In this document: piece after piece, positions 5,036-61,600 of the stretch
Layout of the letters: every line of letters starts with the position of its first letter
Position numbering within the stretch: position 1 is the first letter of the stretch
From: a virus
Virus record (IMG/VR): IMGVR_UViG_3300030329_001933
Span: 1 to 63,953 of that record
Length of the DNA: 63,953 nucleotides
Strand: one strand, 5' to 3'
Program-made: the position numbers and the translations under genes
The notes under the pieces: generated by a model
Told to the model about the DNA's origin: nothing
The model's database searches: none
The model's input: the letters and a program-made list of their open reading frames with translations, nothing else

Positions 5036-8000
5036 ATGAACGAAGAAGCATTAAAAGATGCCTACAGCTTGTTTACACAATCAGGCTACAGCGGCTCACA
5101 AGATGAGTTTTACACTTTATTATCTGACAACGCTGAAGCGTTTGCAGACTCTTATGCTTTATTTAAAGGATCTGGATATAAGGGGTCTGAAGATAATTAC
5201 AAAGAGTTATTAGGCTTAAAAAAAAAAGATTCTTCAGCATTACAAGATGCGGCTGCTCAGATGGCTTCAGGGGATACTCCATCAACATCGGATCTTTCTC
5301 AGTCTTCTTTGGAACAAGACGTTCAAGCTAGTTTAGAGGAAAGATTATCTGGGTTTAGAGACCTTCCTGAACAGGAGCAATTAAATGCTGTAAATAACGA
5401 AGCTAAAAAACCTTTCTACGAGGCTCAAGGTATTGACTACCAAGAGATGCTTAACTTTCAATCTGTACTTGACAATCAAAAGCAAGAAAAGCAGGAAGAA
5501 GAAGAGGTTAGCGAAGAGTCTAGCTTCCTATCAAATCTATACGACAAAATAACAAGTACCGAAGATTTAGAGCAGGATATGTTTACTACAGACGTAGACC
5601 TGGCTAATCAATATTTTGCTGACAACAGAGATAAAATGAGGTCAGCTAAAGCTCAATACTCTAGAGCTAGATTTGACGATATACTTAAAACGTCAAAGGA
5701 TAACCAAGAATTTGCTAAAAGAATAGAAGACGCAGACATTGACACCAATGATCTTGCAATGCCAGAACTAAATATTGATGGTCAATCTAAATCCTTTAAC
5801 GAGTGGTTAGACTATTGGATGGAGGGTGACAATGTTGAGGATCAGCAAAAAGCTATTAAAGAGCAGGAGGAGTATGATAACGCTATAAAAGAAGGTATGA
5901 GTGCCGAAGAGGCTTCTGAAAAGTTCCTCAAAACTCAGGTTCCTGATATATCTATTAATGTTCCCAAAGAGTCTGACCCCAATTACAAAGCGTTAAAGTA
6001 TGCTGACGATCTAATGAACAGACAATTAGGTTCTGGTAGTAGCAGAACCTTTGATGCTTTTGAAGGTCTTTTAGCTACTACTGTTGATTTAGGAGCAGGA
6101 TTATTAGAACAAGTTGAGAAAGTTGGGGCACTTTCTGCGTCTGCTCAGTCAGGTAGCACTATGCCTTGGGATTTGTATATGATGAAGGGTGGTCACTTTG
6201 CTAACAAGGTTAGGGATTACGCAAACGATATAAGAGAAAACACAAGAATACCTGAAGAGGGTTCTATATCTGAGGCTATATTAAATGGTAACGTTGAAGA
6301 TGCTGTGTACCAAACAGCAAGTGGCGTAGCTAATGCTATCCCTTTTACTGTTGCTGTGGCTTTAGCCGCACCTGTCGCAGGGCCTACTGGGGCTTTAGTT
6401 CTTGGTGGTGCGTCAGCAGCAGGTATGAAGTCTTTAGAGCTCAAAGAGAGGAGAAGAGTTGGTATAGAAGAGGGTACTAAAGATGCTGATATAAAGAATT
6501 GGCAAATACTTGTTAGTGAAACCGTTACAGGTGTAGCGGAAGGGTTTTTTGAGAGGTATACTCAAAGAATATTGCGAGCTGCTAAACTTGCAGGAGCCAA
6601 TAAAAATGTAGTATTTGAAAGTTACATAGAGGGTATAAAAAAGTCTATTAAACAAGAGGTTCCTAGTGAGGTGGCTACAGAGTTATCTACTTACTTTACA
6701 GATGTTGGGCTTGAGTTAGAAGAATTTGACTCAGGAGAGTTTGCAATTAGAGTAGTAGACACAAGTATTATATCATCCTTATTCGGTGGTAGTACTTATG
6801 TTTCAACCAGAGGTGCTACATCTATGGTTAATAAACTAAATATAATCAACGACAACACCTCTGTAATCTTTACTAACGAGAAAGGTGAGACAAAGGAAGT
6901 GTCTAGAGGTGAAGCTATAAACTTTGCTAAAGACCCAGAGATAGCTCAACAGATTAGAGATGGTAAGCTTAAGGTTGACTACTCTATGAATGACGCAGCT
7001 AAACAAGCTATAGAAGATTTAGTTTATGGATACACTGCCCCTGATGCTCAACAAGCTAGAGCTGAGATGTTCGAGAAGGAGAAGGTTGTATCTAATCTAT
7101 CTAGAAAAATTAATAAAGCTAAAGAAGAAGGTACTGAAATATCTAACGAGGATGTTTCTAACCTAGCTCAAGCTTTATCTGAGATGGAATCTGAAGGCAA
7201 GAAGTCTAAGTATAACGTTACTAAAAGCACTAAGGCTGCTAGAAGCGAGGCTAACAAAGTCCTTAAAGATAATAACATAGAGATAGTAGATGCTGTAAAC
7301 TCTCAAAATACATCTATATCTAACGTTACAGAAACTGTAGAGGCTACAAAGATAGACAATCAAAAGCAGTACGACTCTGTTAAGAAACAGTTAAAGGATG
7401 GTAAAGGAAAGCCAACTATAGTTCAGTCTCAAAATCAAAGTGGTGTTAGGATTGACGGAGAGGTGTCTCAAACTTCAGATATAACTCAAGGTGAGTTTAA
7501 AAATGCTTCTGTAGCTAAGAATGCTATGAAGGAGTTCGAGGCTAAGAGAGATGCTGCTAAGAGAGGGGAGATGATTGAAAGCGAATTGTTTCCTGCTAAC
7601 AATAAGTTGTTTACAAACACCAAGAAAGAAACCCTTGACGAAATACCTCAAGAGGTTATAGATAATAACGATTACCACATACTAACTTCAGAAAAAGAAG
7701 GTTTAACAGAGCAAGAAAGAGCCTCTAGAATGGAGGAGCTTAAATCTATGCTAGATGAGGCTGACGCAACTTATTATACCGTTCAGGGTGTTTATAACGG
7801 GGTTGCTGAAGAAAGCCTTGTGGTAACAGGAATAGATAACGCTACCGCTTTAAATATAGGTAATCAGTTCCAACAAGAGTCTATTTTCTCGTCTAAGGAT
7901 GGGTTAATGTTTGGTGATGGTAGTGTAGTTCCTTTAGATGGTGATGTATCAAAGGGTCCAGACGCTAGGAAAAGAGACGCTCTAACTATAATGAATGTTG

Positions 8001-11000
8001 GGGGTAGAAAATCCTCTATACATACAGGTCTTAACTGGGGTAATATGAGTTACGGTAAAAACTTTAACTCAGATAACATTCACAGGTTAGACGAGAGCGA
8101 TCCTAATTATGATAGTGAACTGTTCCAGGGATTAACTGACAGTAGAAAGAGAGCTTTAGGTTTTGCTTTTAAATTACTTAACTCTATTGGTGGCCTTAAC
8201 GTTACTATTGTTAGAAATAGTAAAGCTATGGAAGGTCAGCTTGAAGCTTTAGGTTACGACACAGCAAACAGAAACGCATCTTTCTTTAGGGGTGCTGACA
8301 AAACTATATACGTAAACCTTGAAACTGTTCGTGGCAATACTTTATTCCACGAGATAGTTCACCCAATGGTTGACTTTATTAAGAAGACTGATCCTGAGTT
8401 ATATAAGAGAATAGAGGGAGAGGTTTCTCAAGGTAAGGTTAAGAGAAGAGTGTTAAAGAATGGTCGTAAGGTAAAAGGATCTTACCTTCAGTGGGCTGAA
8501 GAAAACTACGCTGACTTATCTAAAGAAGGTCAAATAGAAGAGGCTTTTGCTGAGATGATGGGTGATGCTGCTTATGGTCACTTTAATAAGAGTCAATCTA
8601 CACTTAATAGAATTTTAGATATTGTTAGAGCTATGTTAGGTAAGCTTAACATAACTACTAATAAAGAAAACCCAGCAGCTATAAACCTAGATGAGATGTC
8701 TTTATCTGACATGAGAAAAAACTTAGCTGGTGCTTTAGTTGATGGTAGAAAGATTAACGTTGGGGGAATTGAATTTGAAGTTGGAGAGGTGAAGGTTGAT
8801 AAAGATAAGGTTAACAACTCAATTAGAACTCAGGTAGATAAATCAGAGCCTAACTCTGATCTTGGTGTTGTAAACGTAAACATACCAGACAACGTTCAAA
8901 CTCAAGAGATACGATTCCAAACTCCTGAATACTATCCAAACTTTGATATATCAAAAGTCAAAAGAGGTAGTATAAAAGAGTTTAATGGTCAGAAGGCTTT
9001 ACTTATGTTGACTGATAGATCGGCATCTGGTATGGTTGTATCTCCAACGGGTGTTAAGCATGAATTTGACGGAGGGGTGTTTTACCCTTACCAAGAAGAT
9101 ACAGGTGTTTGGGCATTCTCAGATAAGTCTGCAGCAACTAGAATGATTAACGCAGCAAAGGAGAGTGATGGTTTAGTATTCTTAACGGCTATGGCTCCAG
9201 GTTCTATTGATGGTAGCGTTAACATGTTTGATTACGTTATGAAAGAACTTGATCAAGCTATAAAAGATAAGAGAGCTACTAAGAAAGAGGTTCTAGACTT
9301 CCTTAATAAGAAGATGACTATAAAGTCTTTTGACTCTAAAGTTAAAGGTGAAGGGATAAAAACAGCTAAAGTTAAATCTGTAAAAGAGTTTAGTAATTTA
9401 GTTTTATCTATGCCTCAAGCTTTTGGTGTTAGGAAAGATATAATAAGGAAGTCTATCCAGAGTAAGATATTTGAGAAGTGGGGCGTACCTTCTATGCAGG
9501 AAATGTATGATGTTGTAAATCAAGATATTGTAAAAAACCTTAAGGGTAACCCTATAGTGTCTGCTATTAGGATAGATACAGAGGCTGGATATGTAGATTC
9601 TAGAACTGACGAAAGTATTAAAGATCACCCTACCTACCCATACGTTGTTAAAGGAGAGCCCTTAATGATATTTGACGAATCTATTGACGCTTCAGAAGTT
9701 TGGGATGAGCTCAACTTAGCTGATAAGTTTTTAATAGATTCTAAGACAGGAGAAAAACTAAGTGAAGGTACAACTCAAGCTAGAAGACAAAGAAAGATTG
9801 AGATGGCTAGACCTGTTGTTGAGATTAGAATGCAGGCTGCTGAAGTAGCAGAAGAATATGTAAATGACTTAGATCAGAAAATTAAATCTACGAGAAACTC
9901 TAAAGAATTACAAAGACTATTAGATATTAAATCTGGTTTAGCTTTTAGGTCTGGAGATTTAACAACTAAGGCTGAATATAAATTTAAAATGAGACCAGGC
10001 AGGAGCACTGGGCACTTTGGAACAGGTTTTTATTTTTTCAGCGACCTTAATAGAGCTAAGGCTTATGATGACAGAAGAGTTTCTGTTATTAACTTAAATA
10101 ATTATAATTTAGCTCCTGGTACTATTGAGCTGCACGATGCTCTTAAATTTATAAACAATACATCTTACAGCTATGACTATAATAAATACACTGTAGATAG
10201 ACAACACCTTGGTCGTATAGCTTCTATTGTAGGAGTTGAACTACCTATTGGTAAAGATTTAAATCCTTACAAAGAACTTTTTGCCCCTAAAGGTGCTAAA
10301 GCTTATGCTGAAAAGTATAATGCTTTAGTAGCAGAGTTTGGTGAGGATCTTGTTAATGAAAATTATTATAAATATATAGACTTTGAACAAAAAAGATATA
10401 GTAACGTTAATCAACTGGTTAACGATATTAACTCAAAGTTAAACGATTCAAATAATATTGATAGTCCTTCGACTCTTGTAATGAAGGCCTTAGGTTTTGA
10501 AGGTATAGATTCTAGGTACAATAAAGATACTGACAACTCAATCTATGGTACTGTAGTTTATGATATAAAATCTGATCAAATAGGTGGTATTAGAATGCAG
10601 GCTCCTCAAGTAGAAGAAGTGCAGTGGCAAAAATCTAAGATAGGTAGAGGTGATTTAGCTATCACTAATAGAAGAGAAGAGGTTAGAGAGGCTGCGCAGG
10701 ATTATTTCGATGGTAAGATAAACCAGGAGGAGTATCTGGAGATCGTTCAAGAGAATAGCCCTATTAAGCCTATAACCCAATTTATAGACCCTGCAAGCCT
10801 ACAAGATATTAAAACTGCTGTAGGATCGAAGATCGAAGGTAGATTAGACGTTCCTATAGAAGAGGGAACTAAGGTTGGTTTACGATTAGATATTCCTGCT
10901 TACACAAATAAAAATATATGGGCTATTACCGTACACGAAGATGGCAGAGGTAAAGCTATGTCTTATACAAATGTTGCTAGAATAAACAACGTTGAGTTTA

Positions 11001-14000
11001 TATCTAGTCCTAAAGTTGCTTTAGGTATAGCTAGAGGAAGATTAAGTAAGTCTACCATTGCTAGAATGCTAGGTAGCTGGAGTCCTATTGAGGGGGCTGA
11101 CGCTAAATCTAGAGGTGAGAACGCTAAACAGATTGTAGCTAATGTAATGAACGATCCTTCTTGGGTGCAAGTTGGTATGAATCCATTTAGACACTCTTAC
11201 TTTTACGATAGATTAGATGGTATGCCAGTTGTAAGTGCAGAGCAGGTTATTCAGATTGGTGGGTTAGTTTACGCTAAGAACGCTGAGAAGACTACTCCTT
11301 TTGATGAGAGATTTGAAGACGCAAGAACAGGATTAAGATTCCAAGCTCCTACATACGATATGGAGTACACACCTAACGCTTTAGTATCTTTAGCTATGTT
11401 ATCTGATAACAACAGACAACCAGAACAGTGGGTTAAGGAGATAGGTAAAGGACTTAAGGGTGCTTCAAGGGATGTTGACACCATGGGATTACTAGACCTC
11501 CTTAAAGCTTATAAAAAGGACGCTAAGGTTAAGAGTATCCCTAAAGAAATGGTAGAGAGAATTATCGCTACCAATATGGCTCAGATAGAGACTAACATCT
11601 TAGATAAATGGTTAGTCCAGTATCCTGGAGCTGCTCTTCCTGGAGGTAAAAACTACAGAGAGTTCCTTATAAATGACAAATCTCCTGAGGATATATTTAC
11701 TGCTGGTCATTATTTTGGATTACCCTACGCATCGAAAAACCTTATAGCTTCTGCTAGGGTAGATGATAGAGTTGGTCCTAATGGGGAGAAGATTCTATTT
11801 GTTCAAGAGATACAATCTGATTGGGTTCAAGGAACTAATAAAGGTGACTTCAAGACTAAGGATGAGATTGCACAATTAGAGCGTGAAAAAGATGATTTAA
11901 TCGGAAAAAACGATATTCTAAAAAACGAAATAAGGTTTATTACAAATAAGTATTATAGAGAGTTTTTTAAAAACTTACCTGATGGAAAAATAAAAAGTGC
12001 TTTTCAAGAGCTCTATGAAGAAAATAATAAAGAAGATTTAATTAGCAGAAAATTGGGCTCAAAAGCGTCAGAGATAGCACCTATTCTTGTATCTCTTAAA
12101 TCAGAGTACGATAAATTAGATAAAGAGCGAGATAGTAATATTGATAGATTTCAAGACATAAAAAGTAGTTTAAAGAGTCTTAAACCCTACCTCCCTTGGA
12201 ATCAAACAGACCTATGGGTTGGTTTAACTATTAGAAAGTTAATCAATCAAGCCTCTAAAGAGGGGTACGATCAGATAGCCTTTGTTAATGGAGAGCAATC
12301 TGATATTATTCAAGGACATAGTGATGGTAGAACAGCAGAGTTCTATAACAAGATCGTTCCTAAAAATATCAACAACGAACTTAAGAGGTTAGTTAAAGGG
12401 ATGAAGTATGGGGTTGAAAGTATAATAGATATTTCTGACTTCCAGTCACTTAAACCTGATGCCTTCTTAGAATCTAGAAGATATTCACATACCTTATTCT
12501 TATCTCCGTTAGGACCAACTACTGGAGATACTGACGTTCACACGTTTGATTTTGACGCTTTAAAACCTTACAAACCCAAGTTAAATGTTTTTAACAGCGA
12601 AGACGGAAATACATATATAAGAACTGAGTTTACAGATCCTAATACTGAAGAGTTATTTGAAAAAACTTACAATAAATTTGATGAGGGTGGAAAAGATATG
12701 TCTGACATGCATTTTTACAATTTGACAAGTGCTATTCTATTTAAGTCTATTAACGAAAGGTTTACTTTACCTAAAAAAGAATACCCTAACGCAGTAATAA
12801 ACCTAACCCCAGAGCTTAAAGCTGCCACTGATAAGGTTGGTCCACTTAGGTTTCAAGTAGCTGGAGAGAGAGCCTCTTTAAGTGAAAAGATACAGGATAA
12901 CTTGATTATTGCTAACGAGATGGAGGAGCTTAATCAAGATGATAAACTATTTATTAAAAGAGCTACAGGTTGGGAAAGAGGTGCAGATGGCAAGTGGAGA
13001 TACGAGCTAGAACCTATTAAATTTAGAGAGGACATAATATCTTTAAGTGATGGTAAGCCAGATTTTACAAAGTTTAAGCGAACAACTAAAGAACAAGAGG
13101 ATGATTGGCTTGGACCTTTCGAGGGTGATTACGTTGCAAAATTAAAAGATATAATTGACGCTAAAGACTTATTTGAAGCTTACGGAGAAAAGAAAAAGAA
13201 TCCTAACGAGAAGTCTTTTATTGGATTTTACAAAGCTGTACCTGACTTAAATGTTTTCCTTAGACCTGGCAGGTCAGAGGGTGGTTCTTATATGCCTTTA
13301 AATCAAGCAATCACAGTAGAATATACCAAGAATACTAGTAAGAAAGAAATTCTTGGAACTATAGCTCACGAAGTGCAACACCATATACAAAAGATAGAAG
13401 GTTTTAGTAAGGGTCAAACATTTACGAAACAATACTACAAAGGTAAGCCAACTAAATCTTACTTAGAGTATTTTAGAAGTGCAGGAGAGGTTGAGGCTAG
13501 AAACGTAGAGACTAGGCTATCTATGGATCCTGTTCGTAGAAGAAACACCTTACTATCTTTAACTGAAGATGTTGCAAGGGAGGATCAGATAAGACTTCAA
13601 GCCCCTCAAGAGGAAGGAGAGGCTAACGTGTACACTTCAGGTTTAGCTACTATAGCTTGGGATGTATCTAAGTTTGTTGTAGATAAAGATTATCAACTTG
13701 GTACCTACCTGTCTAACATAAAGAATAAAGAGCTTAGGTATGACGCTAGGATGTCTGACCTTATATTTAGATCTCATGGTGAACACACTAATCAGGAGAT
13801 AAAAGAAATTATGGTTAGAAGTAAGGGTGAAGTTAACGCTGAACTCTTAAAGACAAGTATGATCGTAGAAGAGGTTAAGGCAGCTAACAAAGAGGCTAAC
13901 TTATCTAGGGAAGAGGTTGATAGACTTCTACATAACCTTGAAGAGGTTAAGGCTATGGAAGATTCAGACCTTAAGGTTGCTCTAATAAAGATGAGAGAGC

Positions 14001-16309
14001 ATATTGATTCCCTAAGTAGAACCCTTATAAGAGAAGGGCTCGTTAATGGTAAAACTCAGTTTACTATAGACGAAAACCTTGGTGTTTACGTAAACAGATC
14101 GTACAAGCAATTTGAGGTTGAAGGATGGAAGCAGACTGATAACGATATTATTAGAAAAGCTAAGTCTTTCCTTTACGCAGAGATTAAAGCTCAAAACGAA
14201 AAAGATGTTGAAGCAGGTCGTAAAGAGCCTATGACTGACAAAGATATAACAGCTAAGGTTAATGCTGAGTATAAAAAACTTATATCTAAAGAAGGTTTCC
14301 GTTACGCTTCTGGTAAGTCAACTCAAAGCGATAACCTAACTATGGTTCAATCTATCTTCAAAAGAAGAAAGAATGTTCCTGTTGAAATAAGAGATCTTTG
14401 GGGAGAGATAGATAACCCTTACTACAACTACGTTACAAGCGTAAACCAAATATCTAGAACTATAGCTGCTCAAAGAATGTTTAGAGAGCTTAACTTTATT
14501 GGTGAAGGTAAGTTTATATCTAAGGACGCTACAGATTTTGCTGACAACGAGTTGTTAGGTGCTAAGTATGGCGATCTTGAAGGTATGTACGTAGATAACG
14601 AAATGTACGCAGTACTTAATAAGTCAGTTGAAAATCTAAACAACCCTGAGTGGTTGAACCTGTACTTAACAGCTGTACTCTTTAATAAGAAAATGAAGAC
14701 TGTATGGAATATAGGTACTCACGCTAAAAACATTATAGGTAACACCTCTTTTGCTACCATGAATGGTCACATAGGTTTTAATGGTGATATGTATAAAAAC
14801 ATTTCAACATCACTAAAAGCTTTTAAATCTATGAAGGAGGGTGAGTTTGCAGATCTTTACAGTGAACTTACTAGACTTGGTGTTGTATCTTCGTCTGCTT
14901 CTTTACAAGAGATTAGAGAGATAGCTAACGATATACAAATGTCTAAGTTCGATCTTACTGAGTATCTAGATGAGAATAGAGGTCCTATAAGTAAGAGAAT
15001 GGCTAAGACATCCAGGTTCTTCAAAGAGGGTGTAAAAGGCTTAGATAATATGTTAACAAAAGCCTACCAAGCTGAGGATGATATGTTTAAGATATTTGGA
15101 TTCTTATCTGAAAAGCAGAGGTATATTAAAGCTGGTATAGATCCTGTAACAGCTAAAGACATGGCTGCTAGAAACATAATAAACCTTTACCCTAACTACA
15201 ACGAGATACCAGGATTTATAAGAAAGCTAGGTAGATCTCCTGTAGTAGGATCATTCGTTGCTTTCCAGGCTGAAGCTGTTCGTAACACTAAGAACGCTGT
15301 TAAACTTGGATTTGAAGAGCTTGGTAGTAGTAACCCTAAAATAAGAAAGATAGGTGCTACTAGAGTCGCAGGTACTATATCTGTATTTGCCCTTATAGAG
15401 AGTCTTCAAATGGCTACCATACAAGCCCTTGGCGGGGCACTTGGTTTTACAGGTGGAGACGAAGAGGAGTTAGAGGATAGAGCTATTAGGCTTTTGCTCC
15501 CTGAATGGGACTCTACAGGTAAACTAGCGACAGTCGAAAGAGGCCGATTAGATAGTAGACAGGTAGAAGGTCAATCTGAACCTGATAAGTATTTTGACTA
15601 CGTAAATCTATCTAATACCTCTGGTGTTGGTTATATTAAAGATATTATGAGACTCGCTTTTACAGATATAGATTCTGAATTAGGGAAAGAAGAGTTTGAT
15701 GATACAGTAATGAATATACTAGAAGATGTGTACAAACCTTTCTTGGGAGAGGAGATGACTTTAATAGCGTTTAGAGAGGCTATTGATAATAGAGGTAAAA
15801 AGGTTTACAACCCTACGGACTCTTGGTACGAAAAGCTTGGTAAGATTATGTTATACGCAGGTAAGAAAATACAGCCTGGTATCACCAAAACAGCTTACAG
15901 AAACATAGAGTCTAGATGGGATTCAGACTCAGAGCTAGTACCTGAATACGAAACTTTAGCTGTCCTTGGTCTTAGAGTATCTAGGATAAACGTCAACAAA
16001 GGTTTAGCTATTAAGAGTAGGTTCCTTGTTAATGATATGAACGATATAGTGGGTAAGGCTACTATGAGAAACAAGATGGACATAATAAATGCTTACACTC
16101 AAAATAGTAAGTTCAATGGGTTTATAGACGAGATGGCTGATCTTTATTCTACAGCTAGACTTAACCAGGTGGCAGGTATAGATATAGAAAACATCTTAAG
16201 AAAGTCGGGTATTAGCGAGAAAATGTTAGATATTGTTAGAACTAGGTACTACAACAATTACTCAGAAGATGTAATTAATGTTGATGAAACCTACGGATTT
16301 GACAAATAA
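5036..16309 (+). CDS. Giant polyvalent protein, 3,757 aa, with two zincin motifs, ART-like and LPD-type domains
   Basis: This protein is probably injected with the DNA, acting on host targets and processing virion proteins. The N-terminus has two tandem repeats of the form YxLFxxSGY-GS (about residues 8-55). Hydrophobic Ala-rich segments lie near 430-470. A first metallopeptidase-like motif HEIVH is at 1105-1109, with an EEAFAEMM downstream. An ADP-ribosyltransferase-like block (MRPGRSTGHFGTGFYFFSD, about 1652) follows. Next is a block with EIQSDWVQG (about 2258), common in giant phage and plasmid proteins. A second zincin motif HEVQH is at 2778-2782 with GEVEARN after it, like the LPD23 type. 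A C-terminal helical region with NIGTHAKNIIGN (about 3224) is LPD38-like. Six copies of [IL]RxQ[ATV] separate blocks. The polyvalent-protein concept is established for phages and conjugative elements; activity here is inferred. Confidence 0.85.
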   Translation: MNEEALKDAYSLFTQSGYSGSQDEFYTLLSDNAEAFADSYALFKGSGYKGSEDNYKELLGLKKKDSSALQDAAAQMASGDTPSTSDLSQSSLEQDVQASLEERLSGFRDLPEQEQLNAVNNEAKKPFYEAQGIDYQEMLNFQSVLDNQKQEKQEEEEVSEESSFLSNLYDKITSTEDLEQDMFTTDVDLANQYFADNRDKMRSAKAQYSRARFDDILKTSKDNQEFAKRIEDADIDTNDLAMPELNIDGQSKSFNEWLDYWMEGDNVEDQQKAIKEQEEYDNAIKEGMSAEEASEKFLKTQVPDISINVPKESDPNYKALKYADDLMNRQLGSGSSRTFDAFEGLLATTVDLGAGLLEQVEKVGALSASAQSGSTMPWDLYMMKGGHFANKVRDYANDIRENTRIPEEGSISEAILNGNVEDAVYQTASGVANAIPFTVAVALAAPVAGPTGALVLGGASAAGMKSLELKERRRVGIEEGTKDADIKNWQILVSETVTGVAEGFFERYTQRILRAAKLAGANKNVVFESYIEGIKKSIKQEVPSEVATELSTYFTDVGLELEEFDSGEFAIRVVDTSIISSLFGGSTYVSTRGATSMVNKLNIINDNTSVIFTNEKGETKEVSRGEAINFAKDPEIAQQIRDGKLKVDYSMNDAAKQAIEDLVYGYTAPDAQQARAEMFEKEKVVSNLSRKINKAKEEGTEISNEDVSNLAQALSEMESEGKKSKYNVTKSTKAARSEANKVLKDNNIEIVDAVNSQNTSISNVTETVEATKIDNQKQYDSVKKQLKDGKGKPTIVQSQNQSGVRIDGEVSQTSDITQGEFKNASVAKNAMKEFEAKRDAAKRGEMIESELFPANNKLFTNTKKETLDEIPQEVIDNNDYHILTSEKEGLTEQERASRMEELKSMLDEADATYYTVQGVYNGVAEESLVVTGIDNATALNIGNQFQQESIFSSKDGLMFGDGSVVPLDGDVSKGPDARKRDALTIMNVGGRKSSIHTGLNWGNMSYGKNFNSDNIHRLDESDPNYDSELFQGLTDSRKRALGFAFKLLNSIGGLNVTIVRNSKAMEGQLEALGYDTANRNASFFRGADKTIYVNLETVRGNTLFHEIVHPMVDFIKKTDPELYKRIEGEVSQGKVKRRVLKNGRKVKGSYLQWAEENYADLSKEGQIEEAFAEMMGDAAYGHFNKSQSTLNRILDIVRAMLGKLNITTNKENPAAINLDEMSLSDMRKNLAGALVDGRKINVGGIEFEVGEVKVDKDKVNNSIRTQVDKSEPNSDLGVVNVNIPDNVQTQEIRFQTPEYYPNFDISKVKRGSIKEFNGQKALLMLTDRSASGMVVSPTGVKHEFDGGVFYPYQEDTGVWAFSDKSAATRMINAAKESDGLVFLTAMAPGSIDGSVNMFDYVMKELDQAIKDKRATKKEVLDFLNKKMTIKSFDSKVKGEGIKTAKVKSVKEFSNLVLSMPQAFGVRKDIIRKSIQSKIFEKWGVPSMQEMYDVVNQDIVKNLKGNPIVSAIRIDTEAGYVDSRTDESIKDHPTYPYVVKGEPLMIFDESIDASEVWDELNLADKFLIDSKTGEKLSEGTTQARRQRKIEMARPVVEIRMQAAEVAEEYVNDLDQKIKSTRNSKELQRLLDIKSGLAFRSGDLTTKAEYKFKMRPGRSTGHFGTGFYFFSDLNRAKAYDDRRVSVINLNNYNLAPGTIELHDALKFINNTSYSYDYNKYTVDRQHLGRIASIVGVELPIGKDLNPYKELFAPKGAKAYAEKYNALVAEFGEDLVNENYYKYIDFEQKRYSNVNQLVNDINSKLNDSNNIDSPSTLVMKALGFEGIDSRYNKDTDNSIYGTVVYDIKSDQIGGIRMQAPQVEEVQWQKSKIGRGDLAITNRREEVREAAQDYFDGKINQEEYLEIVQENSPIKPITQFIDPASLQDIKTAVGSKIEGRLDVPIEEGTKVGLRLDIPAYTNKNIWAITVHEDGRGKAMSYTNVARINNVEFISSPKVALGIARGRLSKSTIARMLGSWSPIEGADAKSRGENAKQIVANVMNDPSWVQVGMNPFRHSYFYDRLDGMPVVSAEQVIQIGGLVYAKNAEKTTPFDERFEDARTGLRFQAPTYDMEYTPNALVSLAMLSDNNRQPEQWVKEIGKGLKGASRDVDTMGLLDLLKAYKKDAKVKSIPKEMVERIIATNMAQIETNILDKWLVQYPGAALPGGKNYREFLINDKSPEDIFTAGHYFGLPYASKNLIASARVDDRVGPNGEKILFVQEIQSDWVQGTNKGDFKTKDEIAQLEREKDDLIGKNDILKNEIRFITNKYYREFFKNLPDGKIKSAFQELYEENNKEDLISRKLGSKASEIAPILVSLKSEYDKLDKERDSNIDRFQDIKSSLKSLKPYLPWNQTDLWVGLTIRKLINQASKEGYDQIAFVNGEQSDIIQGHSDGRTAEFYNKIVPKNINNELKRLVKGMKYGVESIIDISDFQSLKPDAFLESRRYSHTLFLSPLGPTTGDTDVHTFDFDALKPYKPKLNVFNSEDGNTYIRTEFTDPNTEELFEKTYNKFDEGGKDMSDMHFYNLTSAILFKSINERFTLPKKEYPNAVINLTPELKAATDKVGPLRFQVAGERASLSEKIQDNLIIANEMEELNQDDKLFIKRATGWERGADGKWRYELEPIKFREDIISLSDGKPDFTKFKRTTKEQEDDWLGPFEGDYVAKLKDIIDAKDLFEAYGEKKKNPNEKSFIGFYKAVPDLNVFLRPGRSEGGSYMPLNQAITVEYTKNTSKKEILGTIAHEVQHHIQKIEGFSKGQTFTKQYYKGKPTKSYLEYFRSAGEVEARNVETRLSMDPVRRRNTLLSLTEDVAREDQIRLQAPQEEGEANVYTSGLATIAWDVSKFVVDKDYQLGTYLSNIKNKELRYDARMSDLIFRSHGEHTNQEIKEIMVRSKGEVNAELLKTSMIVEEVKAANKEANLSREEVDRLLHNLEEVKAMEDSDLKVALIKMREHIDSLSRTLIREGLVNGKTQFTIDENLGVYVNRSYKQFEVEGWKQTDNDIIRKAKSFLYAEIKAQNEKDVEAGRKEPMTDKDITAKVNAEYKKLISKEGFRYASGKSTQSDNLTMVQSIFKRRKNVPVEIRDLWGEIDNPYYNYVTSVNQISRTIAAQRMFRELNFIGEGKFISKDATDFADNELLGAKYGDLEGMYVDNEMYAVLNKSVENLNNPEWLNLYLTAVLFNKKMKTVWNIGTHAKNIIGNTSFATMNGHIGFNGDMYKNISTSLKAFKSMKEGEFADLYSELTRLGVVSSSASLQEIREIANDIQMSKFDLTEYLDENRGPISKRMAKTSRFFKEGVKGLDNMLTKAYQAEDDMFKIFGFLSEKQRYIKAGIDPVTAKDMAARNIINLYPNYNEIPGFIRKLGRSPVVGSFVAFQAEAVRNTKNAVKLGFEELGSSNPKIRKIGATRVAGTISVFALIESLQMATIQALGGALGFTGGDEEELEDRAIRLLLPEWDSTGKLATVERGRLDSRQVEGQSEPDKYFDYVNLSNTSGVGYIKDIMRLAFTDIDSELGKEEFDDTVMNILEDVYKPFLGEEMTLIAFREAIDNRGKKVYNPTDSWYEKLGKIMLYAGKKIQPGITKTAYRNIESRWDSDSELVPEYETLAVLGLRVSRINVNKGLAIKSRFLVNDMNDIVGKATMRNKMDIINAYTQNSKFNGFIDEMADLYSTARLNQVAGIDIENILRKSGISEKMLDIVRTRYYNNYSEDVINVDETYGFDK

Positions 16310-16867: not shown

Positions 16868-16988
16868 TAGAACAAGCTTCAGGTTGATCTTTATCTTCTA
16901 GGTCAACTATCCACGATTCAAACGTGTTTTGTGCTGCTTCTTCTGATTTTTTTAATGCGTCTCTTAACGCTTCGTCTCTTTCGTTCAT
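16833..16988 (-). CDS. Small acidic protein with C-terminal cysteines, 51 aa
   Basis: It starts with ATGA overlapping the stop of the upstream nuclease gene, a typical coupled arrangement. The sequence begins MNERDEALRDALKK and ends DNEDCEACGS. It is helical and acidic with three Cys near the C-terminus. Its end overlaps the start of the next gene in another frame, which itself opens with Cys-containing sequence. Function unknown. Confidence 0.6.
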   Translation of the reverse strand: MNERDEALRDALKKSEEAAQNTFESWIVDLEDKDQPEACSIDNEDCEACGS

Positions 16989-17467
16989 TTCTTTTTTGTT
17001 TTTTTCTTGTTAAAAAACCCCCTGCCTAAGATGGTATCGACTGTAATATCGACCTCCTTTTGATTTGATGGGACATATACGTCTAATTTTTGATCGGTAT
17101 CATAAAGATACTTTAAAAACAGCTTGAATCGCATCTTAAATTCAGGGGTTCTTATTCCTTTAGTCTCTATGATAAAACCCTTCTCTAAATTAATAAAGTC
17201 TGGCGTGTAAGATATATTTCTTATATTGCCAAGCTTCTGCTTAAATGTGGTTTTACCTTTTGTTTTACCCTTATCCATAAGGAGACCCTCGAACTTGAAT
17301 TTCTCTACAAGCTCAAAGGTCTTTCCTTCATATTCATTGGGGATTTTTGCTTTTTTAAGGGCTCTGTAGCAGTAAAGCTCTAGTCCTGAGGCAAATGTTA
17401 TTCCATCTGCTGTATGCTTTTTAGCTCTCGTTATCTGCCTACCCTTTCTTCTCTTGAATCGCATCAA
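16985..17467 (-). CDS. PD-(D/E)XK nuclease of the DUF1064 type
   Basis: A 160-residue protein with the nuclease core in order: a Glu in the first helix (SGLELYCYRAL, E30), then YTPDF (D90), then IIETKG (E101, K103). This is the arrangement seen in DUF1064-type phage endonucleases related to restriction and Holliday-junction-resolving enzymes. Both ends are strongly basic, suiting DNA binding. It probably trims or resolves replication or packaging intermediates. It lies in the minus-strand operon with two other small basic or nuclease-like genes. The fold call is firm; the exact substrate is inference. Confidence 0.75.
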   Translation of the reverse strand: MMRFKRRKGRQITRAKKHTADGITFASGLELYCYRALKKAKIPNEYEGKTFELVEKFKFEGLLMDKGKTKGKTTFKQKLGNIRNISYTPDFINLEKGFIIETKGIRTPEFKMRFKLFLKYLYDTDQKLDVYVPSNQKEVDITVDTILGRGFFNKKKTKKK

Positions 17468-30184: not shown

Positions 30185-30875
30185 TTAGTTGATTTGTTTC
30201 CTCTGCTCTGCTTTTATGTCGACTTGCAACGACCATCGGTAGCATTAAAGGAAAAACGTAAGGTTGGCTCAAGCACCACCATATTAAGTTACTGCGAGTA
30301 ACCCTTACATTGTCCCATCAAATCAAAAGGATTGTGTGTTGTCATTCGTCACGCATTAACACACAAATGCGTGTTGTCTATCTTGCTTCAGAGTATCTGT
30401 CACTTACTCTCATACCTATCAACGTACTGCTACATTACTCAGTACATATCATCGGTATCCCCTCTGATAGACTTCCCATATTAATCGGTACGGATTTCTT
30501 ACATCCCCTATGGTGCTTTACCTAACTTGATGACAGCCTATTGGTCTGTCCAAGCCCACTTGGTTATCGGCAGTGGTTTCCGTCAAGCTATTCGATGCTT
30601 ACAAACGCTGATTGAATTATTGCTCTGATACACTTAGGTAGGCAATGCTACTGCTATGTATCGTTACTAAGACTTACGACCTTCAATCAAGCTAAAGGTC
30701 TATTATACTTGGCTATCTCAACACTCTCGAAAGAGACTTGATAGTCAGATGCTATTCTAAGGATTATATGTAAGCCTTACTGCAATGCCTAAGCACGTTG
30801 CTTACTCCTACGCTGAACGCTGTATCTGAATAAGTATGTTAAAGAACGAACAACGATACTGAATCATTGTTGGGA
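30185..30875 (-). ncRNA. Candidate large structured non-coding RNA (about 690 nt)
   Basis: No convincing reading frame occurs, base composition is more GC-rich than the flanks, and inverted repeats are dense. Perfect pairs include 30189-30196 with 30319-30326, 30258-30263 with 30303-30308, 30288-30293 with 30297-30302, 30390-30395 with 30405-30410, 30416-30421 with 30465-30470, 30424-30429 with 30440-30445, 30526-30530 with 30583-30587, and 30609-30616 with 30682-30689. An H-type pseudoknot lies at 30332-30373. A strong minus-strand promoter at 30877-30908 would start the RNA at a 5' hairpin. Size and phage location recall GOLLD or ROOL RNAs, but no sequence match can be claimed. An origin of replication is the main alternative. 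Confidence 0.55.
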
Positions 30876-30876
30876 A

Positions 30877-30908
30877 CAAAGATAAGGAAAAATAATAATA
30901 CGTGTCAA
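30877..30908 (-). promoter_or_regulatory. Strong leftward early promoter
   Basis: On the minus strand TTGACA (30908-30903), an 18-base spacer and TATCTTTG (30884-30877) satisfy both the sigma70 pattern and the Bacteroidetes TAnnTTTG box. The predicted start is followed at once by a hairpin (30843-30870). It faces the structured RNA and the whole small-gene array. Confidence 0.7.
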
Positions 30909-31492: not shown

Positions 31493-31861
31493 TTGGGAGT
31501 AAAGCAAGAAAAGAAAAGACAGCTAGGAATGGATCCTGGTACTGCGTCAAACAGGTTAAAGAAAGATTTGTTATTTGAGTTTACGAAGAGATTAGGTATG
31601 CACTGGTGTTTTCAGTGTGGTGCGGAGATAGAATCGTGTGATGATTTTACTGTAGAACATAAAACCCCTTGGCTTCATTCAGAAGATCCTAAGGGGTTAT
31701 TTTTTGATATAGACAATATAGCCTTCTCTCACAAGAGTTGTAACTATAGAGCTGCTAGGGCAGGTACTGCTAAGCCTTGCCCCTCAACGACAGCGTATAG
31801 AAACGGTTGTCGATGTGAGGGGTGTAAGGACGCACAGAATAAGGCCAGGAAAAAGGAGTGA
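31493..31861 (+). CDS. HNH-type endonuclease-like protein, 122 aa
   Basis: C39-x2-C42 is followed by VEHKTPWL (H56), DIDNIAFSH (N75, H80) and C83, the order of an HNH finger with structural zinc. Residues 2-30 (the LGMDPGTASNRLKKDLLFEF region) match the N-terminal extension of a recurrent phage HNH family, so the TTG at 31493 is preferred over the ATG ten codons later. A second Cys cluster lies near the C-terminus. It may be a homing-type nuclease or help DNA packaging. Confidence 0.8.
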   Translation: MGVKQEKKRQLGMDPGTASNRLKKDLLFEFTKRLGMHWCFQCGAEIESCDDFTVEHKTPWLHSEDPKGLFFDIDNIAFSHKSCNYRAARAGTAKPCPSTTAYRNGCRCEGCKDAQNKARKKE

Positions 31862-55635: not shown

Positions 55636-58600
55636 ATGGCACAAGATAAGAGAGTATTCACAGGGGGAATGGATAAGGATTCTGATCCTCGCCTGATAAA
55701 AAATGGTGATTACAGACACGCAGAAAACATTAGGAATGTTGCGTCATCTGATGGTACCTCAGGCTCTGTAGAAAATATAGAAGGAACTAAGGAGGTTACA
55801 CATAACTTCCCAGGAGAGGATGTGAATATTATAACTACTCATGATGAAGGCGGGTTTATAGATGATGTAGAGCCAGCCTCTGTAGTGTACAAACAAAAAA
55901 TTATTCTTACTGGTAGAGAGGTAGAGGGGTATAAGTACAACTTTACTATAATAAATCATGTTGATAGTAACGGTACTTTAGCAACAGAGGGTATTGACCT
56001 TAGTTGGGATGGTAACGCAGACGGGACAAAGACTACAGAGTATTTATACGGTAAGTTTGGTCCAAATGGATCTCTTAGTGAGAATATAACTATTATAAAT
56101 AAAGGTACAGGAGACCTTAGTACGGCTCACGTAAATCAAGAAACCTTATTATTTTCTAGTGGGTCCCCTTCGATGAGTGCTGGGGGGTTTATCCTTGAAA
56201 TTGAAATCGTTGCTGACAACCCAGGTATAGACTTCGAGTTAAACTTTGTTAGCTCGTATAGTGCTGAAACTAATCAGTTATGGTCTTCGACTATAAATAA
56301 CCAACACCCTAACGGTCATCTTTTCATTCAGAATAATGGTGCTATGGTTTTAAGCTCTGCTTACGACTTTGGTGTAACTGAATCTGTTAATACTTTAACT
56401 AGTGACGATGGCTCTCCTATAGGTGATTTCCCAAATCAGATTGAAGGGGTAACTCAAGTGCTGTTAGAGTTTGAAGGTGTAGAGCCTACAACTGCAACAG
56501 ATGTTACTGGAACTACTATATTCTCTTATAACGAGAACGCAGATGGTACGTATAATGTTTTGCCTTTTGTAGAGATAGGGGCTGGACTATTTGGCTCAGG
56601 GGATGACTACGAGTTTGACGCTTCTCAAAACAATCTTGCAGAGGCTTTAGTCGACAAGTTTACAAACTTTGAGTCTCCTGTTTTAGAAACTAGTATAGGC
56701 CGACAAATCTTACTTAAATCAGGTCGTAACATTATAACTGGATTTAACAAAAGTACTAAGCTTAATGGTAATATTAGCTCTCAAAGTAGAAATGCAGCAA
56801 GTGCTAGTTCTGACGATTACTACTTACTAAATAGTTACGTTTCTACTGCTGACTTATTACCTAATATAGGTCCAGAGGTGACACTAGAAAATAATGCTTA
56901 TACTATAACTGGACAAAGTGTACAAGCAGATGATAATTTCTTTTTCCCAGCAAACATAGTTGGTGGTAAATACTACAGAATTGAAGGGACTCTTACCACA
57001 ATGGTAGCCTCTAACAGTATAAAATTTGTAGCTGGTAATGAAAAGAGCCAAATTTTCTCTACATCATCAGAAGCTATATCATTTACCTTTAAAGCTGAAG
57101 CTACTCTCTCAGGGTTTAGTTTTACGGTTAAAAACTCTTTTGCTACAGATACTGATCAGATAGTAATAACGGGTCTTACAATATCGGAATATCAAGAACC
57201 TAATAGTAAGTTACAAGTGTTGATACAGGGTAGCTCTAGGTTTGATTTCAATCTTTGTTTTGGGGTTAGTGAAGAACAGGTTAAGCAAAACTTAGATAGC
57301 GGAATCCATCCAGAAATATCTCTACCTGAATATATAGAAGGGATAGCGGCTAGAATAATAACCTATACCTCTACAGGTACTGGGTACGCTGATTTGACTG
57401 ATACACAACAGCTTCTTTTACTTATACAAGAGCTGGAAGCTGAAATAAAGGATTTGCAAGATCAAATTACCAACCTACAGCTTGATCACCAAACTGAACT
57501 TGACTTATTAAATGCTCAATTAGCTGCAAACTCTGAAGAAGCTGCCGCTACTATAGCTGCTCTAGAGGCTGAGATTGATAGTTTAAGCTCTCAGCTTTTT
57601 GACCTTCAGGATTCATATACCCTTATAAGTGGTCAAATTCAGGATGCAATTGCTGCGTCTGAAGCACTTACTGCTGATCTTGACGCTGCTGAAGCTTTAG
57701 TTGCTAGTTTAGAGGCTGAACTTGCTGCTGCTGAAGCTGATGCTACTACAGACGATTTAACTATTCAAAGTTTACAGACTCAACTTGCTCTTGCTGAAGC
57801 TGCCGCTGAAGAAGCTGCTGCTACTGCTGATACAACTATAGCTGATTTATATAATCAAATTCAAGATTTAGAGGATGATATTACATCCTTACAAGCCGAT
57901 GTAGATGGTGCTGTAGGTGCCGACTTAATAACTAATGGTGACTTTACTGATGTTACTACATTAAGTTTAATTGCTGGATCTTCAGGATGGAGGTCTCACT
58001 CAGATGCCTCACAAGATTCTGTAACTATAACTGATAACGGTGAGTTGTCTTTGGCAAGACCAGCATCTCCAGTTTCTGGAGAGGTTACAGGGGCTTATGC
58101 TAGAAACTCTGATGGTACATCAGACAATATAGTAGAGTCTGGTAAATTCTACAGGTTATCTTTTTATATTGCATCTATTACTGATAAGTTTGATGAACCA
58201 TCAACTGCCACAATATCTTATCATACTGGAGGCACATATATTGATTTGGGAGAATTTTCTTCTGGACAAAGTGTTGTAGAATACTACCAAGCAGCAGGTA
58301 CAATCCTTGTTATAAAGAATAATAGTAGTGCACAGACCGTACTTATAGATAACGTAGTCTTAGAACAGATAAGTTTTGCGACTATACAAGACTTTATAGA
58401 TTTAGAGAATCAGTTATATACCACTCAAAATCTTTTAAGTACTTCCGACACAAATCTTAATACTGCCCTTCAGGAGGTTACAGATCTTAATATAGACTGG
58501 GCTGACGCTTATAATGGTATTATAAATCAGCTCAACCCACTTTTAAGTTCTGCATCAGATACACTTTCTACACTAGAAAATGCAGATCTTGTTCAGGATA

Positions 58601-61600
58601 CTTTAACTGATAATCTTAATGCGATTACAGAACAATTAGGTGACGCAATAATAAATACGGGAGCTTTAGCTGCCAATATAGGCTCTACCTATTTTGACGA
58701 GTTAAGTATATCTGCAAATATATCTACTTTAAATGATGTGTTAAGTATTTTTGCAATACAAATTGATGGTATAACAAATACTTTACCTAATGATATAGAG
58801 AGCGTATCATCAACTACTTTAAATGATGCTGTGATTACATTAGATATCCAAGTTGACTACGCTATAACCTCTTTAAACGATGCAATATCTGCTAATAATG
58901 TTACTATTTCTGAATTAGAGAGTGACCTTGCCTCTGCTAACGATGCACTTGCTGTTGCTGAAGCTGCTACTGATGAAGCTAATACTGCTCTTACTACTGC
59001 ACAGGCTGCTTTAGATGCTGCAATTGCTGCTGGTATAGCTGACACTGATGCTCTAGAGGCTGAAGTTGTTGCTGCTGAAGCTGCTCAAGCTACTGCTGAA
59101 GCTGCTCAAGCTGCTGCCGAAGATGCTCAAGCTGCTGCTGAAGCTGCTCAAGCTGATACACAGGCTTTATTAGATGCTGCTCTAGCCCTTAACGATGCTT
59201 TAGTCGCACAAGTTGAAGTTTTAAACTCCACTATTGATACCTTACTGCAGGCAGTTAACTACGGATCAGAGAATATAACTAATGGAGGTTTCACAGAGGG
59301 GACAGACCATAAAGATGGTTGGAGTAACGATAGTGCTTGGACCGTTATAGATGGGGCCCTTTGTAGACCTTCAAATCCAGCCAACAGTTACACCCTTCTT
59401 CAGGTCCCCATTAACTTACCTGCAGGAGATTACGTTTTCTCAATAGATGTTGCACAGCACCCAGAAGAAAATATTTTACAAGGAAATATAAATCCTAAAG
59501 TCGCACAAGGAACTGACTTTTCAACAGAAGTAGAGTTAACCGATAATCCTATATCTACCTCAGGAACTCATATAACAACCCTTACTATTCCTGATGATGG
59601 TATTGATCGTAATTATTTCTGGTTTTTCACATCAAACGATTTTGTTGGGTCTATAGATAATGTCTCTCTTAGGTCTTATACTATTAGTAGTGGTACAGTA
59701 ACTCAAGAGCAGCTTGATGATTTACAGGCTGAATTAAATGAATTAGCAGCTACAAACACTCAAATTTCTAGTGACTTATATAATCTTCAAACTGAAAACG
59801 AGGCTTTAACTACTGAAAATAATGCCTTAGCAGCAGATGTAATTCTTCTTTGGAGCTATATGGATCAATTAGTTGTCAGTGTAAACAACTCTTTAGATCT
59901 TCAGCCGATGATTCTAGGTGATTTAACAGCCCAATCAGGTCTTGTAGATCAAGATTTTATTAACACCATAGTAGCTGCTTTTGAAACTACAATATTAGGC
60001 TTAAACAATACTATTGATGGCCTTAACACCACTATAGATAACCTTGAGGAGGAGTTATATGGTCCTGATCAAACGGCTAACCCTAGTAATGATGTATATA
60101 GGTTTACGATTGTTGGTAATATTCCTAGTTACCATACTGGAAATACATCCCAAGCTGCTGCAAATAATTTTCAGAACTCTCAAGGTGCTTATTGGGGATA
60201 TTGTTTAAGGGCGTTAGCTGTTTGTGGTATTACTAGTGATCACCCTACTGAAAGGTATTATAACCGTTACCACGTTAGCAATTCTGATGAAGATAGGGCA
60301 GGTATATTTTCGTTTAGCCTTGCTATACCTGGTGGTCCTTCTGGTAGTACCCCCGATGGTAACCCTATGCATTCTTCGACTAAAGGTTTTCCTGGGGCCT
60401 GGAGTCTTATAAATGGGTACAGTAGTACTCATCTAGATAATGTTATAGATCCCCGCTTTGCTATAGAAGTTCTTGGTAATAATAGTGTTATAATCACTAG
60501 AGAAACTCCAGAGGGGTATACAGAGTCGTATAAAATATCATTCCTTACAGGTAATGACCTCATGCTTACCAATACTAGTGCAGCTGATGATGAAGATAAT
60601 ACTGAAACCCCAAATAATAAATCTAGTAATGAGATTGGAAAGGCTGGGGGCTTATTAAACCCAGAGAATATAAGTGATTGGTTAGCAGCACAAACATTTA
60701 CCCATGCAGGGGAGGGTGTTACAACAGATATAACTAATGGTATTCAGGTACAGGTAGAGGTTCTTTCTGGTAGTCTTTCAGGGTTGTATTTAGACTCTGC
60801 TTACGAATCTAAGATATGGCATAGCGGAAGTGGATTAGGTGGCGGTGTTGTTATGGGCCCTGGACAACCTTATACTAATTTTCAATATACTTTAGCCGAC
60901 TTTAGCTTACCTGCTCACACGACTAGTGATTTAACGGCTAATCACCTTTACCCTGTTAAGGATGACGGATACCTTGTAGATTTTAGGTTAGATTGTTTTG
61001 TTGAGTTTTTTGCGGGGGGTACTCGATCTGCAGGCGATGAAGCATCAGAAGGAGAAGGGTCAAGATCTTATACAGGTGCCGCTAGAAGAATGTTCCAAAG
61101 CTTTACTACGGGGACTACATCTACCTCACCTATAGATTCCTCAGAGTTTGGTTGGAAGTGTATAGGCTCTTACGAGGATAAGCCTAAAGATTGCGTGTAT
61201 TATTTTATACATAGTGAGGCTGTAGAGGGTATAAAAAAGGACTGTATACTAGAGTATAACTTAATAAGAAACACTGTAGAGACTGTATACCAAGATGGTA
61301 GACCGTCAACAACAGGTAACCCTAACAATATCTTAAACTTTAGTGACAGATACCTGATAACTGGTGTTAACAAGGTTGATGACATTCTTTATTGGACTGA
61401 TGGTCTCAACAGACCTAGAAAAATAAACGTAGAGCTAGCAAAGCAAAACGAAAAAAACATCAAGAACGCTACATCGTTCCAAGATATACTATATAGAAAC
61501 AATCAAAGTAGTGTATTTATAGGGGTATCTGACAACCATGGGTTTGAGGTTGGTGACCACATATATACTCAGATTAATCAAAATAACACTTTACCTGGGG

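Follow-up and report, generated by a model that had tools for sequence, protein, structure and literature searches.

A viral record of 63,953 bases is analyzed here and called the window. It probably comes from a marine, flavobacterial phage of podovirus-like type, an assignment made because its portal protein shares 34-37% identity with the portals of Maribacter phage Panino and Cellulophaga phage phi38:1 (Pervagoviridae). Its closest relatives are uncultured IMG/VR contigs. Between about 29.8 and 16.5 kb the genes form a leftward row, and a structured RNA stands at its head. An HNH endonuclease gene (31493-31861; Pfam 1.8e-5; phrog_23251 6.7e-37) adjoins the leader and points in the opposite direction. 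Elsewhere, an 828-aa phage protein (35791-38277) carries at its C-terminus a Por_Secre_tail (Pfam E 8.4e-13), a domain by which a secretion system sorts its cargo, which is unusual in a phage. One open reading frame (5036-16309) encodes 3757 aa, and another, of at least 2772 aa (55636-63951), runs past the contig end. In neither the window nor eight other loci did ARAGORN call a tRNA or tmRNA.

The first-pass annotation had placed at 30185-30875, within the early leader, a phage RNA that is large and structured, of no named class and of uncertain strand. The description stands; the promoter and the covariation among homologues now place the RNA on the minus strand, and its limits are corrected. 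The body runs from about 30872 to 30247, with a predicted ribozyme continuing to 30200. On this evidence it is an untranslated leader of about 625 nt belonging to a leftward early operon. Read 5' to 3', the locus offers a promoter, a start hairpin, a boxA-like element, structured domains that are interchangeable, the 11-nt motif GAUUYGRUGGG, and a type-P1 twister. This stretch of about 690 nt had been called gene-poor, and rightly so. The longest open reading frames differ among the 17 RNAs compared, with no conserved coding signal, and a protein-coding reading was rejected.

The strong promoter that had been noticed at one end reads on the minus strand (30877-30908), combining TTGACA (30908-30903) with TATCTTTG (30884-30877); it aligns in the homologues and resembles the Bacteroidota consensus. 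At the predicted transcription start lies a minus-strand hairpin (30850-30870), part of the 30843-30870 hairpin already seen in the first pass. The homologues place hairpins of different sequence at the same site and keep the layout of promoter followed by start hairpin.

The hairpin is followed by GTTCTTTAACA (30837-30847, minus strand), which fits the boxA antitermination consensus GYTCTTTAANA. That consensus is described for gammaproteobacteria (PMC5725501), and the window holds four matches to it, short as it is, where 1.05 are expected. Among Flavobacteriales, a close form of boxA stands upstream of 16S in 7 of 27 leaders, against 0 of 540 shuffled ones, while 20 of the 27 have none at one mismatch or fewer. 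This looser test was made after the exact spaced rrn pattern had matched only 1 of 148 genomes. Of 83 sites with the boxA pattern in genome contigs, 8 had TAnnTTTG upstream and 2 were followed by 16S; this tally is not used as evidence because the loci were fetched by the boxA pattern itself. Judged by its agreement with the consensus and by the presence of the element in rRNA leaders of the host type, GTTCTTTAACA qualifies as a predicted boxA. In rRNA leaders, a hairpin precedes boxA. Here likewise a hairpin and then GTTCTTTAACA open an untranslated, structured RNA, but the boxA heads a phage noncoding RNA and a protein operon, rather than rRNA.

How do we know that the RNA is structured? The first pass had argued from a set of inverted repeats that random sequence would not supply. 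Folding energy gives that argument no help, being unremarkable on either strand (z -1.81 minus and -1.63 plus, 20 shuffles per strand). The structure is accepted because of covariation and not because of helix counts, and folding energy by itself would not have revealed it. Two sets of 38 and 50 records were assembled by picking the longer contigs from about 165 loci. A consensus fold of the minus strand in 12 homologues, the window included, contains 132 pairs, with 96.8% of cells paired. Covariation on this strand is strong: 46 of the 132 pairs have changed on both sides, against a mean of 20.3 in shuffled alignments (0 of 500 as high) and 3-7 when the partners are slid.

This covariation defines a structured core, the type I domain, at 30332-30836 (minus strand). 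Within it, the long-range pairing of 30689-30682 with 30616-30609 (spanning 30609-30689), suspected earlier together with a pseudoknot, proves to be a real loop pseudoknot, with 97.6% of cells paired and both-sided change in two of seven pairs. The previously marked helix 30711-30717/30740-30746 is supported as helix 8, where two of four pairs have changed on both sides. Between core and 3' end, alignment shows an optional minus-strand hairpin domain (AAGGGTTACTCGCAGTAACTTAATATGGTGGTGCTTGAGCC...CCTT, 30256-30310), replaced in other homologues by a short hairpin. Helix 12 of the RNAalifold prediction, which would pair the 11-nt motif with ATTCAATCAG, was rejected; none of its pairs shows both-sided change, and the loop pseudoknot better explains the strand involved.

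The last 52 nt of the RNA (30200-30251, minus strand) fit the stems and loop pseudoknot of the type-P1 twister model (Rfam RF03160, 39.5 bits, E 9.1e-7 with 1.6 kb searched), and are predicted to be a self-cleaving ribozyme that cuts, presumably, between 30247 and 30246. Six of the nine homologue loci submitted match as well, as do two further loci, L196 and L155 (E 1e-8 to 8e-6). These scores, 39-45 bits, lie under the RF03160 gathering score of 67.2, and one model stem is missing. Stems P1, P2 and P4 and the loop pseudoknot are paired in 99.5% of cells, and both-sided change is seen in 5 of 15 pairs, a pseudoknot pair among them. Of the 18 homologues extending that far, 16 have a twister by a model built from 14 copies, most of these 16 copies being in the model. 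Here, as distinct from the Rfam twister, the ribozyme terminates a large RNA that bears an antisense motif. If it works as its homologs do, it should release that RNA from the transcript.

No twister was found in the two remaining homologues, G035 and G020. In its place stands a conserved sequence (L164 2187-2335 in G035; the end of L166 in G020). In G035, this looks tRNA-like when folded, its ends being GGGAAU and AUUCCC and one arm GGUUCGAUUCC. The folds of the two hardly beat shuffles (z -0.18 and -1.12), with no call by ARAGORN. The element might be a substrate for RNase P, and thus an alternative way to end the RNA.

Between the core and the twister lies the element that suggests what the RNA does. 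When the RNA is compared with its own genome, one other match appears. It is 21 nt long, exact, and antisense to a gene on the same strand, 13 kb downstream, near the far end of the gene row. The element in the RNA is UCCUUUUGAUUUGAUGGGACA (30311-30331, minus strand), with core GAUUYGRUGGG; its target (17055-17075, minus strand) covers the codons of VPSNQKE. The target gene (16985-17467, minus strand) has profile matches to Pfam DUF1064 (2.8e-9) and to phrog_190, Holliday junction resolvase (1.9e-12), and appears to encode a nuclease that resembles phage endonuclease I and Holliday junction resolvases. Its phi38:1 homologue is annotated as a Holliday junction resolvase. The longest perfect match of shuffled RNAs to the rest of the window was at most 18 nt in 200 trials, against 21 nt for the real one. 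Among the best 14 matches listed per strand, only this one reaches at least 16 nt without G-U pairs.

All 18 homologues having that stretch contain the core (G022, whose RNA is cut off before the motif, was left out), and they do so in RNA bodies of two otherwise different kinds. The gene is found in 10 of 19 records; G052 had no RNA found, and the gene in G045 ends before the target. All records with both motif and target codons, the window included, make nine RNA-gene pairs, and in 9 of 9 the duplex has 15-21 contiguous base pairs, G-U allowed. This count takes the twister-adjacent motif copy of G042 (15 bp). The RNA of G042 has a second copy (GATTCGGTGGG) near its 5' end, at about 149-160 of L133.

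Four of the 23 duplex positions have changed in both partners, and among these changes is a synonymous one in a serine codon (TCA/TCG). Genes with CATCAAATC are accompanied by RNAs with GATTTG(A/G)TG, and genes with CATCGAATC by RNAs with GATTCGATG. The computed duplex energies are -24 to -36 kcal/mol for a phage's own pairs and -18 to -25 for crossed types. Such compensatory changes support a pairing with the resolvase mRNA. Of course, the nine pairs fall into only two target classes (TCA/TCG), so few independent events stand behind them. When RNAs and genes were re-paired (here with the first motif copy of G042, 11 bp), 2880 of 362,880 re-pairings scored as high, a number equal to that of all within-class re-pairings.

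The strongest sign that the match has been selected comes from two phages, G047 and G049. Their RNA cores are 89-94% identical to those of five T-type RNAs having a gene; between the resolvase genes of the two and of those five T-type phages, identity is 73-78%. Their motif is nevertheless C-type and fits their own gene. The motif follows the gene, not the RNA body. A tree of the RNA core, poorly resolved, joins G047 and G049 to the C-type pair G018 and G011 with support 35. A comparison of silent sites gave no clear signal of constraint in the target codons (0.27, versus 0.34 elsewhere in the gene).

The first pass had also proposed that 30189-30196 pairs with 30319-30326 to close a whole domain. 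The two sequences are indeed complementary. They do not form a general helix, because the pairing is confined to the T-type lineage (6 of 16 twister-bearing homologues). Segment 30319-30326 is part of the antisense element. The first of the two segments, CAAATCAA (window 30189-30196), stands directly after the twister in all six T-type homologues that have one, and is absent from the C-type. It could serve as a decoy, or give the mRNA leader a second target of its own.

Most of 46 distinct gene sequences conserve the target stretch, and phages that lack the RNA have the same one. It therefore seems that the RNA follows the gene and that the two have not co-evolved mutually. The same conservation would suit a guide that brings a host or phage protein (a nuclease or chaperone) to co-infecting relatives, at their resolvase gene or its mRNA, excluding them rather than regulating the phage itself; so would the RNA's being an optional insert. 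Such a guide would harm its own carrier, since the gene of the RNA's own phage is matched about as well as the others of its class, and no guide-using protein was recognized among the proteins scanned. We regard exclusion as quite improbable, and prefer regulation of the carrier's own resolvase.

Comparison of the homologues indicates clearly that RNA domains have been exchanged between phages. A second, type II interior (GTTCATTGACATA...TCGCAAAATTCAGCAGTCGGC) occurs in G012, G042, G021, G051 and G045, alone or behind type I parts. The RNAs that bear it retain the twister as well as the antisense motif. In a more distant phage, the leader RNA is a short type II form (L245 8304-8490) with a boxA-like start and a weak twister-like end (16.7 bits); no antisense motif was seen on reading that sequence. 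Searches beyond these contigs yielded little. A DNA search of annotated phages gave no close relative, only four sub-threshold scraps for the type II RNA. One RNA-core pattern matched nothing in bacterial genomes. None of five cultured relatives has a convincing twister (best E 0.30), and four of the five have the resolvase.

If domains are exchanged, the shared 15-21 nt might be explained at the level of DNA, by capture, by gene conversion between leader and gene, or by a recombination site, with no pairing of RNA at all. This is very improbable. The match breaks off abruptly, at points that vary from phage to phage on either side, yet the 11-nt core stays matched, and the orientation is antisense to the mRNA in 9 of 9 pairs. 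Both features argue against a DNA-level origin.

Three further phages, G025, G030 and G031, share their upstream region with the carriers of the RNA. Two of these sites, in G025 and G031, were read and proved empty: the promoter leads to a leader of about 40 nt and the first gene, with neither RNA nor boxA. The first gene in G025 is the gene that follows the RNA in G049. These empty sites bear on another reading, in which the RNA is mainly a cis-acting device for processive antitermination (a boxA with a polymerase-modifying RNA) and the antisense match is a side function. It is attractive that boxA opens the RNA, that the RNA heads an operon, and that phages without the RNA also lack boxA. 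Those same phages keep their early operon behind the same promoter, however, and an antitermination device has no need of a twister that cuts the nascent chain or of a conserved motif directed at a distant gene. Antitermination as the main role is thus unlikely, and the antisense role is preferred.

The first pass had raised kinship with GOLLD and ROOL as a possibility, and proposed a covariance search with their models. These are described as large, structured, phage-encoded RNAs of unknown function (PMC12286853). Neither model matched, even at E<=10 on the region, and over the whole window no Rfam match reached gathering. GOLLD and ROOL are thus rejected as identities. Size, structure and phage origin are common to them and to the RNA described here, but their description, as far as that source was seen (PMC12286853), mentions no leader position, boxA, ribozyme or antisense element. 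A hint of RAGATH-33 in L166 (E 1.4) was discarded, being absent from the window, L196 and L155.

A closer parallel in working is C4 RNA. In P1 and P7, the C4 precursor and its target lie on one leader transcript. C4 is described as a phage antisense RNA processed from a larger transcript, with short complementarity to its target mRNA (PMC5320573). The short complementary stretches are shared, and so, if the twister cuts, would be the processing. C4, however, is about 77 nt long and cut by RNase P, whereas the RNA here is about 625 nt long, starts with boxA and ends with a twister, and its target lies 13 kb away inside a coding region. The Rfam C4 model matched nothing in the window, the region or the homologue loci, and no description of such an RNA was found in the open-access papers searched. 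The best reading of the comparisons is a ribozyme-released, trans-acting antisense regulator of the resolvase, C4-like in its working and belonging to a new, modular and much larger family. It is the antisense element to the phage's own resolvase gene, with its compensatory changes, that alters the likely function.

We think it probable, on balance, that the whole operates as a boxA-led, twister-freed leader RNA pairing with the phage's own resolvase mRNA, the likeliest outcome being repression or delay. Here, a large modular untranslated RNA, its fold derived by comparison, would form the 5' end of the leftward early transcript. Its boxA would recruit the host's rRNA-type antitermination (Nus) complex, allowing RNA polymerase to pass the untranslated stretch and enter the long operon. 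RNA and resolvase lie on the same strand, in the leader and at the far end of one gene row, with the ribozyme between them; presumably a single transcript covers both. The twister, its fold likewise comparative, would by homology cleave the nascent transcript, freeing an RNA of about 625 nt from the downstream mRNA. The freed RNA, its complementarity again known by comparison, would then pair in trans with the mRNA for the resolvase-like nuclease, over 15-21 bp that take in GAUUYGRUGGG and flanking sequence. The duplex, inside coding sequence (an uncommon place for repression), may repress or delay the nuclease, for example via RNase III, until replication has advanced. Repression or delay is favored because a resolvase acting early would cut branched, replicating DNA, as is known from T7 endonuclease I.

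A more general proposal is offered tentatively, as one that may well prove wrong: marine Bacteroidota phages would share a new class of mobile, modular, ribozyme-released guide RNAs, whose antisense guide is re-fitted to the recombination nuclease of each carrier. We are equally tentative in suggesting that members of this class have interchangeable bodies, an rRNA-type boxA start, and either a twister end or, in one lineage, a tRNA-like end that may be open to cutting by RNase P.

What the locus provides is a phage RNA similar in size to GOLLD and ROOL, with a named and testable target, an exactly predicted 3' end, and a natural comparison in the empty sites. If the account is true, a phage times its own Holliday junction resolvase with an antisense RNA that releases itself. 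Twister ribozymes would then gain a biological role, and the antitermination signal of rRNA would have been borrowed for a viral regulatory RNA.
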